From NCBI RefSeq assembly GCF_022984075.1, contig NZ_JALAAD010000001.1:2274455-2338454 (forward strand): a stretch of 64,000 nucleotides of DNA. The letters run 5' to 3'. The DNA is from Synechococcus sp. C9. GTDB lineage: Bacteria; Cyanobacteriota; Cyanobacteriia; Gloeomargaritales; Gloeomargaritaceae. Both the position numbers and the translations under genes were made by a program. The notes beneath the pieces are model-generated. The model was given only the letters and a program-made list of their open reading frames with translations. It had not been told where the DNA came from and did no database searches. The stretch's first letter is position 1. Every line of letters begins with the position of its first letter. This document shows, piece after piece, positions 2,965 to 42,324 of the stretch.

Positions 2965-3172
2965 ATTTAAGGATATTAAGGGAAAATGACTACCGGGCAT
3001 TGGGGAATCAACGGTGACAGGAGCATGATCCCCAGCCTTGGTTTGGGGTTACAGAGTTCAGGATGCCAATGCGGCAACATTCGACATTACTATATATATT
3101 TATTAATTCATTTATTAATGTAATGGGAACCTGTATTTATTTATTGATTTTTGTACTTACATCGTAGAGGTG
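2965..3172. other. AT-rich spacer without recognisable gene
   Basis: There is no convincing coding frame between the repeat and the tandem duplication. The stretch from about 3085 to 3150 is very AT-rich (repeated TATATA and TTATTAAT). It may hold promoter elements for the surface-polysaccharide genes to the right, but no clean promoter can be assigned. Confidence 0.4.
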
Positions 3173-3328
3173 AAAGCCCCATTCTTTGGTTGGCAATTAT
3201 CAATAACCTAGGAGTTATTCGCAATAGTCGTGAATTATACAGGCTGTTAAAAAGCCCCATTCTTTGGTTGGCAATTATCAATAACCTAGGAGTTATTCGC
3301 AATAGTCGTGAATTATACAGGCTGTTAA
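3173..3328 (+). repeat. Perfect 78-bp tandem duplication
   Basis: Two head-to-tail copies (3173-3250 and 3251-3328), each starting AAAGCCCCATTCTTTGG and ending AGGCTGTTAA, are identical along their full length. The period is 26 codons, and the + frame reads through both without a stop (LWLAIINNLGVIRNSREL repeated). Identity implies a very recent duplication or ongoing copy-number change. Whether the frame is expressed is unknown: it has only a TTG start and no ribosome site. Confidence 0.97.
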
Positions 3329-3334
3329 TTATAG

Positions 3335-3475
3335 AAATTATCGGGAACGCTCTCCCCGGAGTGGATTACCCTAGACGTAAAATCTCAACCCCGACCAAAC
3401 CAACGGGAAGCCAAACAGCAAATGTCCCACATCCAGCGATGGAAACAGACCGATACGGTGCTCCGAGTATGTTAA
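3335..3475 (+). pseudogene. Possible C-terminal remnant of an unknown protein
   Basis: A 46-codon frame without a start codon, closed upstream by TAG at 3332 and ending with TAA at 3473. It has protein-like composition: SPEWITLDV, then QPRPNQREAKQQMSHIQRW and KQTDTVLRV. It directly follows the tandem duplication. I do not recognise the family. It could be the tail of a gene that was lost or rearranged here. Confidence 0.28.
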
Positions 3476-3580
3476 TTTTTGTTGCAGGAATTTATTGCCT
3501 TCCCCAGAAGTAATGACTTTACAAGTGATACATTTAGCACTATTATTGGTTACAATTTACGTCAGTTTCTTGAGTTTCGA

Positions 3581-4870
3581 ATGGCTGTGATGCCCAAAGT
3601 ATCTACAGAAAATTCTAATAAACCTCGTCGGATATTATTAGGTCATCTTGCTGCGAGAGGAGATTGTCTCTACGCAACTGCCATCGCTCGCCAGATTAAA
3701 GTAGATTACCCTGGCTGTATTTTAACTTGGGGAATTAGTTCGATGTGCCGTGATATTTTGAGAGGCAATCCTGACGTGGATGAAATATGGGAATTTCCCA
3801 TGCAAAATCATAGGGAAATGATTTCTGCTTGGCAAGCTTTTGAAATGGAAGCAGTAAATCGTTATCAGCAAGGCGATTTTGATGAAGTCTTCCTAACGCA
3901 AATATCCCCGAATAATTTTCACAACTTTGATGGTACGGTGAGGTCGTCCATTTTTAGAGCCTACCCGCGACCGATTACGGTGTCGATCACACCGGTCTTG
4001 AATCTATTTTCAGAAGAAATAGAGGAGGTTAATAAATTTGTTAAAACCCATCATTTATCGCATCGAAAGAATGTTATTTTATTTGAATGCTCTTCCAATA
4101 GTGGACAATCATTTGTCAATCCAGATTATGCTTTAGAAGTTGCTAAAAAATTATTGATTAAGTTGCCAGATAGTAGTGTAATTTTAGCTTCTCATATTCC
4201 TATTGAATCGAATGATGAGCGAATTATTAGTAGTAGTCGCCTTTCCTTTAGGTCCCACGCAGAACTGAGCAAGCACTGCCATCTCTTAGTAGGATGTTCC
4301 AGTGGGATTTCTTGGCTATGTACTTCCAATTGGGCGAAACCCCTGCCTAAAATTCAAGTATTATCAGCGTCCACATCTGTCTATGCCTCAATGGTTCATG
4401 ATTTTGACTACTGTGGACTACCAACAGACCATATCGTTGAAATGACAGATTGCTCGGTTGAACAACTAGCGGATTGCATCTATCTTGCCTTGGTTCAGGA
4501 TATTACAGCGGCTCGTCTGAAGTACCATCAAAAAATCGAATTAGAATTCACTTTTTATCTATCTCTAATTAGAGATTTTTTGCTGAAAACTGGCGAGTAT
4601 GAAAAAGTTTTTCTATCACTTCTTAATACAATTAATCGCTACGGTTGGCAAAGCCAATTAGAGGATTTTATGTTAACTGAAGTACTGCCAAATCTACGGG
4701 ATTCAGTGCGGACATCTTTATTTCATAAACAAGAGATTACACATCTGAGACAGCAGGTAAAGCATTTAAGTGATGAAATTGCTCTGATCAAGAAAAGTAA
4801 ATTCTGGAAGCTTAGGAATAGATGGATCAATCTGAAGAAGCGATTACTTAAAGGTGTTCTTGTCCCTTAA
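3581..4870 (+). CDS. GT9-like glycosyltransferase with C-terminal coiled coil
   Basis: A 429-residue protein. The N-terminal segment RRILLGHLAARGDCLYATAIAR (shown here in parts: RRILLGHLAARGD and LYATAIAR) resembles the first Rossmann unit of heptosyltransferase-type GT9 enzymes. A second Rossmann-like half follows, with VILFECSSNSG and later LLVGCSSGISWLC, placed like the GT9 donor-binding loop. Residues ~385-429 form a basic coiled coil. It probably adds a sugar during cell-surface polysaccharide synthesis. Start ATG 3581 (or 3590) is inferred; a TTG at 3479 would add 34 unsupported residues. It is 5 nt upstream of an FkbM methyltransferase, and the pair is AT-rich relative to flanks, suggesting transfer. 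Confidence 0.75.
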   Translation: MAVMPKVSTENSNKPRRILLGHLAARGDCLYATAIARQIKVDYPGCILTWGISSMCRDILRGNPDVDEIWEFPMQNHREMISAWQAFEMEAVNRYQQGDFDEVFLTQISPNNFHNFDGTVRSSIFRAYPRPITVSITPVLNLFSEEIEEVNKFVKTHHLSHRKNVILFECSSNSGQSFVNPDYALEVAKKLLIKLPDSSVILASHIPIESNDERIISSSRLSFRSHAELSKHCHLLVGCSSGISWLCTSNWAKPLPKIQVLSASTSVYASMVHDFDYCGLPTDHIVEMTDCSVEQLADCIYLALVQDITAARLKYHQKIELEFTFYLSLIRDFLLKTGEYEKVFLSLLNTINRYGWQSQLEDFMLTEVLPNLRDSVRTSLFHKQEITHLRQQVKHLSDEIALIKKSKFWKLRNRWINLKKRLLKGVLVP

Positions 4871-4875
4871 CCCAT

Positions 4876-5862
4876 ATGATCAACACATCCTTCCTTAAAA
4901 AAATTCTAACCTTTACCCCTCTGCTCGGTAATTTTGTTAGCAAATATAACACACTTCGGGAAAAATATAACAAACTGCGGGAGGAACATGACAACTTACG
5001 GGAGGAATATAAGAAACGTCAGGAAGAAATAAAACAATTGGTTGGGATAATGACTAAAGCTGATTCAATTCATTCTTACCTGTTATATCCGGGCTTTGAT
5101 CAGGCTCAACTTCTTGTCACCCTCACTGGTGAGCCTTATCAGTTGTCAGACTTTAATAATTGCTTAAAATTCCTAAAAAATAATCACTGGATTACTCCTG
5201 AAAAAAGTATCTTTTTAGATATTGGTGCCAATATTGGTTCCATGTCTATTTATGCGATTGCCAGTGGAGCTTTTACCCAAGCAATTGCTGTTGAACCTTC
5301 TTCCCTTAACTTTCAATTCCTGCAATGGAATATTAAAATTAACAATTTAGAGAATAAAATTCAGCCAATTCAGTGTGGATTAGCGGACTTCCTGGGAGTA
5401 AGAAATATAATATGTAGCCCCTACAATTGTGGGGATTTTCGGATGTCTTCAAGCTCTGATAAAAATTCAAACAATCTCTATCACGAAGAGCAATTTACTA
5501 CTGAGCAAGTTCCTTTTTCGACCCTAGATTGCTTATCCGATCAGTATAATATAGCACCTGAAAAAATTGGTTGGATTTGTATAGACTGCCAAGGTAGTGA
5601 AGGGTTGATTTTTAAGGGAGGTCAAGAGTTTTTGCAGAAAGCGAGTGCGCCCATTTACGTTGAATTTTGGCCCTATGGAATTAATCGTCTAGGTTGTTGT
5701 GAAGAGTATTTTGATTTTATTATTCAATACCCGGCAGAAATTTTTCGGTGGGTGGACAATCAACCGGAACTAATTACCCTAGATTTTCTCAAAAATTTTT
5801 ACGCAGAAAATGTACAAACGACTTTACACTTAGATATATTGCTATTACCAGCTAGAAATTAA
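4876..5862 (+). CDS. FkbM-family methyltransferase with N-terminal coiled coil
   Basis: A 328-residue protein. Residues ~23-58 form a highly charged coiled coil built of near-heptad units (EKYNKLR, EEHDNLR, EEYKKRQ). The SAM-binding motif LDIGANIGSMS lies at 114-124, and AVEPSSLN follows at 138-145, both typical of FkbM O-methyltransferases that modify sugars or glycan ends. It is co-directional with the GT9-like gene 5 nt upstream and likely acts on the same surface glycan. Its stop codon TAA lies in the left end (TTAA) of the repeat element at 5859. Confidence 0.88.
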   Translation: MINTSFLKKILTFTPLLGNFVSKYNTLREKYNKLREEHDNLREEYKKRQEEIKQLVGIMTKADSIHSYLLYPGFDQAQLLVTLTGEPYQLSDFNNCLKFLKNNHWITPEKSIFLDIGANIGSMSIYAIASGAFTQAIAVEPSSLNFQFLQWNIKINNLENKIQPIQCGLADFLGVRNIICSPYNCGDFRMSSSSDKNSNNLYHEEQFTTEQVPFSTLDCLSDQYNIAPEKIGWICIDCQGSEGLIFKGGQEFLQKASAPIYVEFWPYGINRLGCCEEYFDFIIQYPAEIFRWVDNQPELITLDFLKNFYAENVQTTLHLDILLLPARN

Positions 5863-11986: not shown

Positions 11987-12754
11987 ATGTCTATGAACTT
12001 CCATAGCCTTATCAGCACTTCTGATGAGGAAAACTTTTTACAGATTTTTAAGGATGCTTTCTCTGGACAGAATAAGCAGTTTCTGGAAGCGCACGACACT
12101 ATTCTCAGGGCTTGTTACAGAAATCCCCAACTTGCTCCAACCACAAAAAAGGCTAAAACTCCAGAAGAGTTAGCCAAGGTTTGGTTAGAGAAGTATGAAA
12201 ACGGCTATAAAAATAGAATTTCACGACGCATATCACAACTTCCCCACACAGTTGCTGATCCAATTGTCAATACAATCATCAATGCTCGATTAACAGGACT
12301 AACTACAGAGCATCTTGAACAAATCAAATATGCCCACAGGTTGTCAATGTCTGCCGAGAATATTTTGGGATTACTTTTAGAAGAATTTTTAGCTGATAAA
12401 TTGGCTAGATATGGCTGGTTTTGTTGTTGGGGAGAGTCAATTCGCCATGTGGATTTTTGTAATGTTGATGGTTCTCTCTTGCAGGTCAAAAACCGCAGTA
12501 ACTCGGAAAATAGTTCGTCTTCTCGGGTAAGAATTAACCAGCCCATTGAAAAGTGGTATCGGGTTGATGCTGTAAATGGTAACTATCAATGGTCTTATTG
12601 GCAACGTAAATATAATAACGATGATGACTTTTCTGAAGAAAAATTTATTGGTTTTATTCAGCAAGTTTTACAAAGAAATCCCTGTGCTTTAGCCGTTGAA
12701 GCAGACAACTATTGGAAAAGCATATCTGAACACTCAGAGCAAACTCAAAGTTAA
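11987..12754 (+). CDS. SinI-like type II restriction endonuclease
   Basis: A 255-residue protein. The core ENILGLLLEEFLADKLARYGW, followed by CCWGESIRHVDFCNVDGSLLQVKNR (quoted in part), fits a PD-(D/E)xK nuclease with D156 and Q166-V-K168, an acidic-to-Gln variant. Overall it resembles the SinI family, whose members cut GGWCC. The neighbour is a C5 methyltransferase, and the two genes converge and overlap by 21 nt at their 3' ends. ATG 11987 has AAAGGA 10 nt upstream; ATG 11993 is an alternative. AT-rich codon use suggests acquisition. Specificity is inferred. Confidence 0.75.
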   Translation: MSMNFHSLISTSDEENFLQIFKDAFSGQNKQFLEAHDTILRACYRNPQLAPTTKKAKTPEELAKVWLEKYENGYKNRISRRISQLPHTVADPIVNTIINARLTGLTTEHLEQIKYAHRLSMSAENILGLLLEEFLADKLARYGWFCCWGESIRHVDFCNVDGSLLQVKNRSNSENSSSSRVRINQPIEKWYRVDAVNGNYQWSYWQRKYNNDDDFSEEKFIGFIQQVLQRNPCALAVEADNYWKSISEHSEQTQS

Positions 12755-14161
12755 TTGTTTAGTTAATGCTTCATCTCTATAACCCATCTCCTTCAGCCAA
12801 CTGACATCATCAGTATTGTGGTAGCGGGAGTAGGGGAAATCGGGATATATTCTAGGCTCTTCACCCCTTAGATGGGTTAATAACATTCTCGCAATCGCTC
12901 TTCCTAGAGAGCAAGGAACGGCATTACCCACTTGCCGATATTGATCGAGTAAAGTACCTGCAATCATCCAATCATCTGGAAATTCTTGAATGCGCTTATA
13001 TTCCTCAATGCTAAGGGGTCTATCCTCTTCTGGGTGAGCTAAATCTGTGGCAGGCATAGCGGGATGAGTGACCAAGGTAGGGGCTGGTTTATCCCAAGCC
13101 AACCTGCGGTAAAAACCCGTTTTACCTCCTCCCGCATGATAGGAAGTTCCCAGTGCCTCTTGATGCAGCTCTTCTGGCAAGTCCCGCCAGTATTGCCCTG
13201 GTTTCAGTAATCTATAATACTTGAGCCGTTTTTCTGGAAACTTGACAAAATGATGTCCATCCTTAGGCAGACCTGCTAAAGCCTCTCGTAAAGTCTTCCA
13301 TTTGGGCAGACCATATAATTCTTTTTCGGAATGAGTGGGGGTGAGATAGGGCAGTTTTACACCATCACGACTACAAGCAATGATCAGTCTTTCTCTTTGC
13401 TGAGGTGCTCCAAAATTAGCTGAGTTATAGAGGTTGAAAGAAACGCCATATCCTGCATCTTGTAATTTTTGAATAATGAGAAGCAATGCACCGCCTCTTC
13501 GTTCATCTTGGGATAATGGTGGAAAATTTTTGCCTCTCATTTCATGGGGTCGATGTTTTAATGGCGCAGACAGTAATCCCCTGACATTCTCAATCACCGC
13601 AAATCTGGGTTTAAGTTCAATGATTAAGTCAACGAACCTTAAGAAAACATTGCCTCGTTCATCGTTGAATCCTTGGCGCTTGCCTGCACTGCTAAAGGCT
13701 TGACACGGTGGTCCGCCAACAATTACATCAATCTCATCAGTTGAACTCAGTCCTGCATACGCTCGAATTTCTGTGGCTGAGTAATCCCGAATATCCCCAA
13801 TCAATGCCATGTCTGGTCGATTGATCTCAATCGTTTGTCGAGCGGCGGGATCAATTTCACAAGCAAGGAGTACTTGGATGCCTTCTTTTTCTAGCCCCAA
13901 ATCCAGACCCATACAGCCAGAAAAAAAACTCAAGGCTTTTAGCTCAGGTTTGCTGAACGAGCGTCGCCCATGATCAGGGATTTTTAGGCTTCTATTCTCT
14001 CCTTTAACACGGTAGCTCTGCACAGATTCTGATGCTACAATCCACCGACTACTAATCCTTTCCCCGCTGATTTCGCCATACCGAAGTAGCTGGCGTACAT
14101 ATTGCTCTGAGCAGTTTAAGATTTCAGAGGTTTCTTTTACAGAGAGGTATTCGGTAACCAT
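12734..14161 (-). CDS. DNA (cytosine-5) methyltransferase with N-terminal HTH
   Basis: A 475-residue protein. Residues ~4-50 form an excisionase/MerR-like HTH (LSVKETSEILNCSEQYVRQLL). The catalytic part has motif I (ALSFFSGCMGLDLG, 77-90), motif IV with nucleophile C153 (GGPPCQAFS), motif VI (ENVRG, 191-195), QQRERL, and the motif X-like QVGNAVP. It should protect the host by methylating the cytosine recognised by the adjacent SinI-like nuclease. The HTH may also repress transcription of the cassette. ATG 14161 is chosen; an upstream TTG at 14236 would add 25 residues that do not look conserved. Confidence 0.94.
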   Translation of the reverse strand: MVTEYLSVKETSEILNCSEQYVRQLLRYGEISGERISSRWIVASESVQSYRVKGENRSLKIPDHGRRSFSKPELKALSFFSGCMGLDLGLEKEGIQVLLACEIDPAARQTIEINRPDMALIGDIRDYSATEIRAYAGLSSTDEIDVIVGGPPCQAFSSAGKRQGFNDERGNVFLRFVDLIIELKPRFAVIENVRGLLSAPLKHRPHEMRGKNFPPLSQDERRGGALLLIIQKLQDAGYGVSFNLYNSANFGAPQQRERLIIACSRDGVKLPYLTPTHSEKELYGLPKWKTLREALAGLPKDGHHFVKFPEKRLKYYRLLKPGQYWRDLPEELHQEALGTSYHAGGGKTGFYRRLAWDKPAPTLVTHPAMPATDLAHPEEDRPLSIEEYKRIQEFPDDWMIAGTLLDQYRQVGNAVPCSLGRAIARMLLTHLRGEEPRIYPDFPYSRYHNTDDVSWLKEMGYRDEALTKQLTLSLL

Positions 14162-14236
14162 GCTTTCGGTTGCGAAACTAAAACTAGGTACCCATCCTAC
14201 TGTCAAAGTATCATGCGTGCAAGTATTGTGAACCAA

Positions 14237-26168: not shown

Positions 26169-26966
26169 TTACTCAGGGGTGGGAAGGGTTTGTAGAAATT
26201 GCACAACAGCTTGGGCTTCGGAGGCTGTCAATTGGTAGCGGGATTCTTTAGAAAATTGGGTTTGTAAATAACTCCGTCCTTCGGTAATGGTCCATCCTAC
26301 CCGTTGCATTTCCTGTCCAATGATTTCAATTTCGGGGAGTAGTTCAATGACTCCAGCAACCAAGCGATAACACATCGGTTCTGGATCATTTTCCCCTTGC
26401 CAAGGTTGACCAAAACTCATAGATAACAAGCAATGATTACTAATCGATTGCCCCTGGTTTAATTTATTAATCGTGATTGGGTCGGTAACGCTAAAACCTA
26501 TTTTTTCGGAATCATAAATATCATCTAAAATAAATACTTTACACTTACCATATTGATTCCGTTCCCATCGTAATTGTTTGGCTTCAATAAGTTGCAACGT
26601 CTGAGCGGGTTTAATTTTATTCAAATAAGCAGAAGGAATTTTGCGACCAAATTCTGGATAAAGTAATTGCTGTTCACGGTAACGTAGAATCTGAATAACC
26701 TCTGCTTTTCCTACAATGTTCCAGTCCTGACTTTTATAGAGGCGATTTTCTCTTTCATACCCAGAACTTCGTTCGTTGGTAAGCGGTATATCTACAATGT
26801 CTAATAGGTTAATTTGCTCCGATGGTATCGTACTGTCATTCGTAGGAATTCGTCCATCATCTAACTCGGATACAGGGCGCACCCATTCACCAGAATCAAC
26901 AGTAATGCCAGCAATACATCGCCCTTGATGTTTATAGGAATTCGCCAAACAAATGACCCGCCGCAT
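26169..26966 (-). CDS. Dual-OB-domain protein, third gene of a DUF488 operon
   Basis: A 265-residue protein. It begins RRVICLANSYKHQGRCIAGI and continues GEWVRPVSELDDGRI, LLDIVDIPL and the second half RWERNQYGKCKVFILDD, with two beta-rich halves consistent with the dual OB-fold family seen in bacterial accessory operons. OB folds usually bind nucleic acid or small ligands. ATG 26966 is preceded by TAGGAG, which overlaps the stop of the DUF488 gene upstream, so translation is coupled. Its biochemical role is unknown. AT-rich relative to neighbours. Confidence 0.8.
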   Translation of the reverse strand: MRRVICLANSYKHQGRCIAGITVDSGEWVRPVSELDDGRIPTNDSTIPSEQINLLDIVDIPLTNERSSGYERENRLYKSQDWNIVGKAEVIQILRYREQQLLYPEFGRKIPSAYLNKIKPAQTLQLIEAKQLRWERNQYGKCKVFILDDIYDSEKIGFSVTDPITINKLNQGQSISNHCLLSMSFGQPWQGENDPEPMCYRLVAGVIELLPEIEIIGQEMQRVGWTITEGRSYLQTQFSKESRYQLTASEAQAVVQFLQTLPTPE

Positions 26967-26974
26967 AACCACTC

Positions 26975-27412
26975 CTAAAGATGAATGATTTGGAGATTAT
27001 TTAACCGAGATTGCAGATATTCTGCCGCTAAACGCCGATGGCAGTAATGGGGTTTATCTTCGCTACACAAAAAGCAAGCCTGGTCTAAATCTTCTGGTTT
27101 TAACAAGGATTCTATCTGCCGTTTTTGAATCAGTTCTAAATAGGCTTTTTCGTACTCATTCCAAGAAATTTTTTTCTTTTTATATCCATCTAAAACATCT
27201 TGGGTTGGAGCCAATGGTAAACAATGTTCATATCTGATTTGCCCAATTTTATCTAGGAAATACTCCAGGTCAGATTGTTTAGCAAACCCTGATAATTGGG
27301 AGGTATTATTTAACCGAGTATCAATTAGTTTTTTCACCCCAGCTTGTTTTAATCCCTCAAAAAATTGAGCGGCAGATTTACGGGTGAATCCAATCGTAAA
27401 TAATTTAATCAT
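26975..27412 (-). CDS. DUF488-family protein, second gene of operon
   Basis: A 145-residue protein. KLFTIGFTRKSAAQFFEGL, LIDTRLNNTSQLSGF and the C-terminal CFLCSEDKPHYCHRRLAAEYL match DUF488. The family-conserved C-x-E...CHR cluster looks like a catalytic or metal site, but no enzyme activity is established. ATG 27412 overlaps the 3' end of the preceding DUF488 gene by 8 nt. This copy lacks the C-terminal extension of its neighbour. Confidence 0.88.
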   Translation of the reverse strand: MIKLFTIGFTRKSAAQFFEGLKQAGVKKLIDTRLNNTSQLSGFAKQSDLEYFLDKIGQIRYEHCLPLAPTQDVLDGYKKKKISWNEYEKAYLELIQKRQIESLLKPEDLDQACFLCSEDKPHYCHRRLAAEYLQSRLNNLQIIHL

Positions 27413-28046
27413 CGTGGTTCTCACCTTGTTCTTTTTCTACATAAGCAATCTTTAACCCTTGGCGGCGGTAGGCTTCCTTTAATCGTTCTTCTTGGGTTAA
27501 TTTGGGCGTGGGATCATCCGCAAATAAAGAAAGTTGGTCTCCCAATTTTTCCTCCTGTAAGTGGTGTAGTTTTAACATTCGTTCCTCTAAATCCTCGTGA
27601 TATTCTAAAGAACCATCATGGAGAATATGACCGATTTCTAAGTTAAAGGGCATTAAATGTTGACAAACTAAAATCGCCCGATGGCAGGTGATCGGGTCTT
27701 TTTCGGCACACATTAGCGCAATCCGATGGCTTTGCACCCCTTTCAAAATCCGTTTAATTCCCTGGGAAAATTCTGGGGTAGCGGCGATATGTTCATATAG
27801 GGCTTTTCCATCCACATAGCAACTGGGATTTTCAGGACGGGCACCTAGTTCTTTCCCCAAAAATACATAACGAATTTCCGCTTGGGGTAAATGTTTTTCT
27901 AAAACTTGGCGATTAAATTGCGGCAACCGTCGGCTGTAGGGCATGGAACGCACATCCGCCAAAGCCGTTACATTATGTTGTTGAAGCAGGGCAATAAAAT
28001 TCTCCAGCGAATGATGAGAATGCCCAATGGTAAACAACGGTTGCAT
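27405..28046 (-). CDS. DUF488-family protein, first gene of operon
   Basis: A 213-residue protein: TIGHSHHSLENFIALL, ADVRSMPYSRRLPQFN, YVFLGKELGARP and ALMCAEKDPITCHRAI, all DUF488 hallmarks. A C-terminal extension of ~70 residues (HHLQEEKLGDQLSLFADD and on) is rich in charged residues. It leads the operon 28046-26169. No clear ribosome site upstream. The two DUF488 proteins differ strongly, so they are probably not redundant. Confidence 0.88.
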   Translation of the reverse strand: MQPLFTIGHSHHSLENFIALLQQHNVTALADVRSMPYSRRLPQFNRQVLEKHLPQAEIRYVFLGKELGARPENPSCYVDGKALYEHIAATPEFSQGIKRILKGVQSHRIALMCAEKDPITCHRAILVCQHLMPFNLEIGHILHDGSLEYHEDLEERMLKLHHLQEEKLGDQLSLFADDPTPKLTQEERLKEAYRRQGLKIAYVEKEQGENHDD

Positions 28047-28098
28047 GACCCGTTAAGAATTAATTAAATTCATACCAACTAATAACTCTAGTATAGGG

Positions 28099-29256
28099 TT
28101 ACTCCAGACCGTCCTGGGACAAAAATGCCCGGTCCATCGGCAGGGGCGCAATTGGTTCATTCAAGGTAAATTCCCCCCGCTCAATCCAGGATTTGAGAAT
28201 TTCCGCCACCTCCAGAGACCAGGAAATGCTGGCGAGGGGGGCAGTACGGACTTGTGTCCCGTTAATCGTAATTCGCCCGGACTTGAGTTGGGCATAACTC
28301 ACCAGTCCAAAGCTGGGACGCACTCGGCGGGGAATGGCAAAATCCATCACCGGCACGACAATATCCTCATCCTGTACTGCACAAGCGACAATCACCTGCT
28401 CATCCAGAACCGGGAAGGGTACCCCCACCCCCAGGTACAGCGAGGAACCGTAATGTTTGAAAAAACAGCCCCGCACCCACCGGGATTGCATCTGCTGGGC
28501 ATCCCCAATCAGTGCCACCGTCGCCGCTGGTCCAATGGGCACCCGATTCGGGAGCCGTTTTTGCAAAGGGAAATGTTGCGTCCCTTCCCAGGCGATGTAC
28601 CCCACCCCGCCCCCCAGAAATACCTTGGTGCCAATCCCCACACACCGCAAGTCCGGGTCGTTCAACAGGGGAGAAAGGGCACCCGTGCAGGCATACACTG
28701 CATTCCCCAATTGCGGCAGGAGGGGTCCCAGATAGGTGTAAAGCGTCCGGTCTCCCCCATTCACCCCCACGATAAAATTTTGGTACAAATTACGGGGATT
28801 GTACAGATAAAATTGGTTGATCGTATCTTTGCTAATCCGGGTTTCTAAGGTTGGGCGGGGATAACAATCTGTACTTTGCCCCACCGCCTTGAGGGCAACC
28901 GTGTTCCCGGCAATCAAATCGGCAATCACATGACCGCCCCCCCGCTCCGCTCCCTCGTCTTCTCCCAGTTGGGACGCCCCAATCACCACATCCACCGCCC
29001 CAAACCCGGTGTAGCACGGTACCCCATCCAACCAACATTGGCGCAGTTTAATCGGCGGGTCCGTCTGCCCCAGATTCAGCACCGCCCCGGAAGCCTCCAT
29101 CGGCTCGAAGGTTCCCGTAGTAATCACATCCACGGTACGGGCACAGCGGGCGACCCCCCATTCCTTGACCCGGGCTTTGAGTTCTGCCGCCGTCCACACC
29201 ACCGCTTGTTTCGCCTGGATTTTGGCGTTGATCTCTGCCCAGGTACGCAGGGTCAT
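28099..29256 (-). CDS. DUF39 homocysteine biosynthesis protein
   Basis: A 385-residue protein matching DUF39 from the start (TWAEINAKIQAKQAVVWTA) through GTFEPMEASGAVLNLGQTDP, GGDRTLYTYLGPL and GIGTKVFLGGGVGYIAWEGT. In methanogens and some bacteria this family converts aspartate semialdehyde plus a sulfide source to homocysteine. This copy ends after the catalytic region (DYAIPRR-like VMDFAIPRRVRPSFG), without visible CBS or ferredoxin domains. Cys85-type residues (GVPCYTGF) and C196 (VYACTGALSP) are candidates for catalysis. Substrate use here is inferred from family only. Confidence 0.86.
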   Translation of the reverse strand: MTLRTWAEINAKIQAKQAVVWTAAELKARVKEWGVARCARTVDVITTGTFEPMEASGAVLNLGQTDPPIKLRQCWLDGVPCYTGFGAVDVVIGASQLGEDEGAERGGGHVIADLIAGNTVALKAVGQSTDCYPRPTLETRISKDTINQFYLYNPRNLYQNFIVGVNGGDRTLYTYLGPLLPQLGNAVYACTGALSPLLNDPDLRCVGIGTKVFLGGGVGYIAWEGTQHFPLQKRLPNRVPIGPAATVALIGDAQQMQSRWVRGCFFKHYGSSLYLGVGVPFPVLDEQVIVACAVQDEDIVVPVMDFAIPRRVRPSFGLVSYAQLKSGRITINGTQVRTAPLASISWSLEVAEILKSWIERGEFTLNEPIAPLPMDRAFLSQDGLE

Positions 29257-41527: not shown

Positions 41528-42324
41528 AGTTGGAATTTTAGAACAAAATCAAGTTGAGATTTTAGCCATTGTTGAAGAGTATCCAGATAACTGTTTGTGG
41601 CAATATCTCGAAATAATTGGAGAAAGGCTAGGAATCCATGTGAGCATTAGCACATTGCATTCTTTCTTGAAAAAGCATAAAATCACTCTAAAAAAAAGAC
41701 ATTTCGCAGTGAAAAAGTCAAGAGTGAAGTTGTGCAGAACGCTTAGAATACTGGCATAAGATTGGAAGTGTTCCAGCCGAAGATATAGTTGCCGTAGATG
41801 AAACAGAAGGGAGGGCATGGAGAGGCAAGTTGCACGGAGTTTACAAGGGAAAAAAGTTTATAGTTATCGCCAGAAAAACAAGGGTCAAAAATACACGTTA
41901 ATTGGTGCTATATCTGTGGATGGCATTGTTTGTCATAAAATCATCAAAGGCTCCATGAAGAAACAGGATTTTTTAGAATTTGTGAAAACAGAATTATGCC
42001 CAAAATTAAATGAGAAGAAGGTGGTAATTATGGACAACTTGAATAGTCATAAAGCCATAGAAGTACAACAGATGATTAGCCAGACTGGTGCTCGTTTATT
42101 GTATCTCCCTGTGTATTCACCAGAATTTAATCCAATTGAAATGATGTGGTCAGTCCTAAAGAATTTTATTCGACAGTTTCATGATTCACCAGTAAAAAAT
42201 ATACAGTCAATTATCCAAGCATCTTTGTTATTGATTAATCCTTCTTCTTTTGCAAATTGGTTTGCCAAATGTTGCTACTGTACCCCATAATAAAAGAAAA
42301 GGCTGTATCCAAGGACAGTGATTA

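Follow-up and report, generated by a model that had tools for sequence, protein, structure and literature searches.

PDC-M45 is catalogued in PADLOC as a candidate phage-defence system with three subunit models. The PDC entries of PADLOC originate from a guilt-by-association screen. We know of no antiviral test of PDC-M45 and, to our knowledge, no member of this system has an established activity. The papers searched contain no mention of PDC-M45, and none names DUF488 together with a dual OB protein. The survey of the rhodanese-phosphatase clade by Burroughs and Aravind in 2023 reportedly predicted that some members of that clade process DNA ends in conflicts between viruses and their hosts, and the Pfam entries DUF488-N3a and DuOB are presumably derived from it.

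We analysed a stretch of 64,000 nucleotides from the genome of Synechococcus sp. C9 (the window). Three adjacent and codirectional genes occupy its minus strand between positions 26169 and 28046, in the order B-C-D. Gene B (27405..28046), recognized as an open reading frame and through profile matches, encodes a DUF488 protein of 213 aa. Gene C (26975..27412) encodes a second DUF488 protein, of the N3a type, with 145 aa counted from the ATG at 27412, while gene D (26169..26966) encodes the dual OB-fold protein DuOB, with 265 aa from the ATG at 26966. In Pfam, B matches PF04343 (1.8e-27), C matches PF04343 (3.6e-20) as well as PF22751 DUF488-N3a (3e-8), and D matches PF22557 DuOB (2.4e-40). PADLOC models match one to one: PDC-M45B for B (1.1e-77), PDC-M45C for C (5.9e-65) and PDC-M45A for D (1.2e-29). 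Because the trio matches all three PADLOC models and the Pfam DuOB and DUF488-N3a families, the combination is already catalogued and therefore not new. Judged by these profile matches, the locus is a new member of PDC-M45. Sequence searches for solved relatives of B, C and D retrieved none that was credible.

The trio had been characterized in a preliminary description as a packed, AT-rich DUF488-DUF488-dual-OB operon, and both attributes hold. The probable starts of C and D are slightly internal to the listed open reading frames. With C starting at the ATG at 27412, the end of B and the start of C overlap by exactly 8 nt (27405..27412, minus strand), an overlap also present in a sister genome (L068; G239). 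The TAG stop of C lies within the ribosome site of D, TTTAGGAGTGGTTATG, where it overlaps the Shine-Dalgarno motif AGGAG (26972..26979, minus strand). In comparison with the sister genome G387, dN/dS is 0.087 for B, 0.086 for C and 0.217 for D, so all three genes are kept by selection, D least strictly. These low values, together with a B/C spacing of -4 being the commonest across unrelated phyla, place the packing beyond chance, and the B-C-D locus is a genuine operon. The further suggestion that coupling implies stoichiometry is plausible in view of the DuOB fusions described below. The GC content of the trio is 40.5% versus 52.0% for the window (35.6% for C alone); 5.5% of equal-length windows are as low and further AT-rich islands are found nearby. 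One separate island (11987-14236) holds a type II restriction-modification pair, in which the gene of a SinI-type endonuclease (Pfam RE_SinI, 2.4e-34) overlaps that of a C5-cytosine methylase tail to tail. Another (3151-5862) carries an FkbM-type methyltransferase and two open reading frames without Pfam or PADLOC matches, and an AT-rich stretch at 41817-42287 contains a fragment of a DDE_3 transposase.

Co-occurrence of the three genes across genomes, which the preliminary description had proposed as a check, is clear. DuOB was detected in 43 of 386 cyanobacterial genomes (~11%), and B, C and D occur together in 35 of the 40 cyanobacterial DuOB loci that were fetched; the five exceptions consist of fragments, decayed copies or a truncated contig. 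Searching GTDB genomes with C yielded at least 557 relatives; 80 loci from ~10 phyla were kept, and 59 of them have the complete set. The remainder comprises contig ends, a D-B fusion, solitary C genes and loci in which D was not detected. The complete trio was also present in three of six plasmid loci. Outside cyanobacteria the order is D-B-C, mostly with 4-nt overlaps, and in most cyanobacteria it is B-C-D. In a tree of C in which many forks are not resolved, the C protein of the window falls into one cyanobacterial cluster, and a second cyanobacterial lineage (L033 and L071) clusters with Chlorobi and Proteobacteria, an indication of transfer. In nine loci (L097, L117, L123, L124, L128, L095, L144, L146 and L147) a DUF488-N3a gene stands alone, unaccompanied by D or B; in the six that were read (L095, L097, L123, L144, L146 and L147) it lies among housekeeping genes (Caldilineaceae and others). 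Two very divergent DuOB-like proteins (L179, 7177-7977; L204, 6678-7325), with the signature VTDLTxFxxP, were missed by the DuOB profile.

The trio is an accessory, horizontally mobile module. In this genus it is flanked by a gene for a 208-aa protein and by the homocysteine biosynthesis gene HcyBio (28099-29256). Genome G388 has both flanking genes with ~123 bp between the aligned flanks, versus 1,988 bp in the window, and so represents an empty site. On one contig of G386, B alone is kept at the site; D is broken in G239. Both G387 and G239 show a chromosomal rearrangement at the trio locus; the break in G387 corresponds to position 28083 of the window, and in G239 fragments of B and of the D end are duplicated. 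These comparisons also bear on a sulfur-transfer role, in which the DUF488 proteins, placed in the rhodanese-related superfamily, would act as partners of the adjacent and codirectional HcyBio gene. HcyBio is apart from the trio in G387 and G239 and is not a recurring neighbour of it elsewhere; the empty site in G388, where HcyBio stands without the trio, contradicts the partnership, and we rule it out as extremely improbable.

Mobile elements carry the cassette as well. A 4.2-kb mobilizable Klebsiella plasmid carries D, C and a DUF4326-like open reading frame and no other recognizable cargo. With the C alignment we detected 37 viral contigs; single-protein tblastn found no DuOB in phage records, and the DuOB of the window as sole query found none in viral contigs. 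Cassettes on plasmids lie near viperin, CBASS with HORMA and Csm6/Csx16. In other phyla, PglX, type IIG enzymes, Csx1, DrmMI, GmrSD and BrxL are among the neighbours, along with housekeeping genes, in a tally made without a matched control. The cyanobacterial copies have mostly ordinary neighbours, and the frequency of PADLOC matches beside the trio did not clearly exceed that at 36 positions chosen arbitrarily in these genomes, as counted in per-family tallies with crude gene calls in GC-rich contigs. No fourth conserved gene recurs beside the trio beyond clade synteny. The defence context is therefore real in some hosts but was not clearly seen in cyanobacteria. As to the enrichment in defence islands that the preliminary description proposed to examine, copies on plasmids and in other phyla adjoin viperin, CBASS, BREX, Csx1/Csm6 and GmrSD genes, and cyanobacterial copies show no clear excess over the control positions. 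A location mainly next to housekeeping metabolism, named there as counting against the proposal, holds in part: it suits the cyanobacterial copies, that of the window included, and does not suit the copies that adjoin defence genes on plasmids and in other phyla.

Both DUF488 proteins retain the C-x-E and CHR residues, as had been noted from the sequence at the outset. The predicted active-site motif of B, CAEKDPITCHR (27678..27710, minus strand), includes C113, E115, D117, C121, H122 and R123, all invariant in 26 aligned sequences. In C, the C-x-E and CHR residues of the predicted active-site loop CSEDKPHYCHR (27035..27067, minus strand) are invariant in an alignment of 27 sequences, and of a further 123 C proteins 120 contain CSExxPxxCHR. 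The structural model of C (pLDDT 90) weakly resembles PTP phosphatases (SsoPTP, Z 7.5) and methylases acting on diphthine (diphthine synthase, Z 7.2) or tetrapyrroles (CbiL, Z 8.8), with a best Foldseek E of 3e-3. Its secondary structure suggests that strand 116-120 and helix 129-140 enclose the conserved CSE...CHRR loop, at the position of the catalytic loop in PTPs. Retention of all catalytic residues in both proteins argues against a locus of the toxin-antitoxin or abortive-pair kind, with one DUF488 protein toxic and the others restraining it. The small coupled genes, the carriage on plasmids and the RelE/ParE modules sometimes found alongside favour such a locus. However, a short labile antitoxin-like gene is lacking, C genes persist on their own and an orphan B occurs, and we regard this reading as very improbable.

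The variable-length tail of B contains a candidate sliding-clamp-binding motif, QLSLF (27522..27536, minus strand), at residues 171-175 between stretches of variable length. The alignment gaps suggest that this segment is flexible. QLSLF or a close variant is present in 52 of 54 cyanobacterial B proteins, and QL[SDN]LF in 50 of 118 B proteins overall, where shuffled sequences would give 0.14; the consensus for clamp binding is QL[S/D]LF (PMC12309361). In other phyla, xx[SDNE][LMI][FIT], mostly as xxD[LM]F, occupies the motif position in 57 of 64 B proteins (12.9 in shuffles). The Q is kept in only 10 of these 64, and the full-strength QLSLF is restricted to cyanobacteria. The motif is kept in an orphan B, is absent from four DUF488 proteins outside the trio and was not found in DUF4326 proteins. 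On this pattern of residues, QLSLF is likely a docking tag for the replication clamp DnaN. The clamp-type motif of B is new here.

For the model of DuOB (pLDDT 95), the closest structural counterparts are tandem OB proteins such as HIN DNA sensors and ssDNA-binding proteins, although the resemblance is weak (best Foldseek E 5e-4, TM 0.25). At its C-terminus, D has a three-helix module (26172..26342, minus strand; residues 211-267) whose modelled fold fits the Red-beta C-terminal domain (Z 7.5, rmsd 1.9 Å over 57 residues), a domain that binds SSB and lambda exonuclease (PMC8303780). Neither a PDB profile search nor hhalign gave significant sequence homology of the module to Red-beta, and sequence comparison did not rise above shuffles. 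The helical module is present in some cyanobacterial DuOBs only, and most DuOBs lack it. A protein of 192 aa without a Pfam match, encoded elsewhere in the same genome (L074, 1084-1662; C1 near 334134), also ends in this module, and its N-terminal part is perhaps Rad52- or annealase-like, a guess from its sequence. In locus L100 (4467-7361), a complete RecQ helicase (DEAD, RQC, HRDC and HTH_40) is fused to DuOB directly before B and C, and L159 encodes a DuOB-DUF488 fusion. The RecQ-DuOB and DuOB-DUF488 fusions are new here.

Several of these features are also what would be expected of a module for repair or replication maintenance, processing ends at stalled forks and not serving immunity, which mobile elements would use for their own replication. 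The clamp-type motif, the RecQ-DuOB fusion, the Red-beta-like module common to D and one other protein of this genome, the ordinary cyanobacterial neighbours and the breadth of the trio over phyla all agree with it. A maintenance function fits less well with DuOB being in only ~11% of cyanobacterial genomes, with absence or decay of the trio in sister species and with the replacement of B by a DUF4326 partner on mobile elements, and we consider it possible but rather unlikely.

This replacement is strict. In 26 of the 37 viral contigs and three of the six plasmid loci, B is absent and a DUF4326 protein, in the member scanned an mSLOG-DUF4326 fusion, stands in its place. Among 123 loci, 80 have B, 29 have DUF4326 and none has both, so that D and C form a constant core with which B and the DUF4326 protein combine in a mutually exclusive manner. 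The strict swap on mobile elements is new here. Published predictions have DUF4326 processing the terminal phosphates of ADP-ribose products (PMC9503650) and linking NAD signalling to DNA modification (PMC7824862). These predictions, the mSLOG-DUF4326 partner and the frequency of the cassette on viral contigs would suit a system that processes nucleotides or ADP-ribose derivatives instead of DNA, as counter-defence for phages and plasmids and as immunity for hosts. The constant DuOB partner, the RecQ fusion and the clamp-type motif argue for DNA, however, and the DUF4326 partner was found in none of the 80 sampled genome loci; we consider a non-DNA substrate unlikely.

The explanation we prefer, with about even confidence, is that this PDC-M45 copy is an accessory, mobile three-protein module acting against invading DNA. 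A DNA-directed function is suggested by the tandem OB fold, the RecQ-DuOB and DuOB-DUF488 fusions and QLSLF. D would bind the nucleic-acid target through its tandem OB folds. C, the constant enzyme, and B would be Cys-loop enzymes of the rhodanese-phosphatase fold that act jointly on a phosphate, sugar or nucleotide group, with DNA ends or nicks as plausible sites. The QLSLF tail of B would dock the complex on the DnaN clamp and direct its action to replicating DNA, and on plasmids and viruses the mSLOG-DUF4326 protein in place of B would couple the D+C core to a nucleotide signal. A more specific version, which we offer as speculative, is that M45 is a clamp-tethered DNA-processing immune complex: with B held on DnaN by QLSLF, D might read exposed DNA and the DUF488 pair might modify or block the ends of invader DNA, while the mobile-element version would exchange clamp docking for a SLOG nucleotide sensor fused to DUF4326. 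Solitary C genes beside housekeeping genes, the weak fold matches and the rarity of the motif Q outside cyanobacteria count against the preferred explanation, as do the lack of a clear excess of defence genes beside cyanobacterial copies and the failure to find the motif in DUF4326 proteins. The nucleic-acid-directed accessory or defence module first proposed for the trio consequently stands in part: the locus is accessory and mobile, is a PADLOC candidate and has a tandem OB protein, a RecQ fusion among its relatives and a clamp-type motif, but its cyanobacterial neighbourhood is not clearly enriched in defence genes.

Common across bacteria, the trio is also found on plasmids and in viruses. 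Through the clamp-type motif, the strict B/DUF4326 swap and the RecQ fusion, a gene set without an assigned function becomes open to specific and cheap tests. The questions they raise are whether the trio restricts phages, whether B binds DnaN, and whether its conserved cysteines target DNA ends or nucleotide signals.

In comparison with PDC-M45 as catalogued, the locus shares the three subunit models, matched by B, C and D, and their adjacent, codirectional genes. It differs in the cyanobacterial order B-C-D instead of D-B-C, in the full-strength QLSLF of cyanobacterial B and in the extra C-terminal helical module of D. That module shares its predicted fold with the Red-beta C-terminal domain, from which it differs in lacking significant sequence similarity. 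Like the proteins of the rhodanese-phosphatase survey, the two DUF488 domains have a conserved Cys-Glu-CHR loop, C matches the active DUF488-N3a of Pfam, and the DUF4326 swap fits the proposed kinship. The DUF4326/DuOB/DUF488 cassettes of plasmids and viral contigs have a D+C core identical in kind to that of the window, whereas their DUF4326 protein replaces B and never accompanies it.
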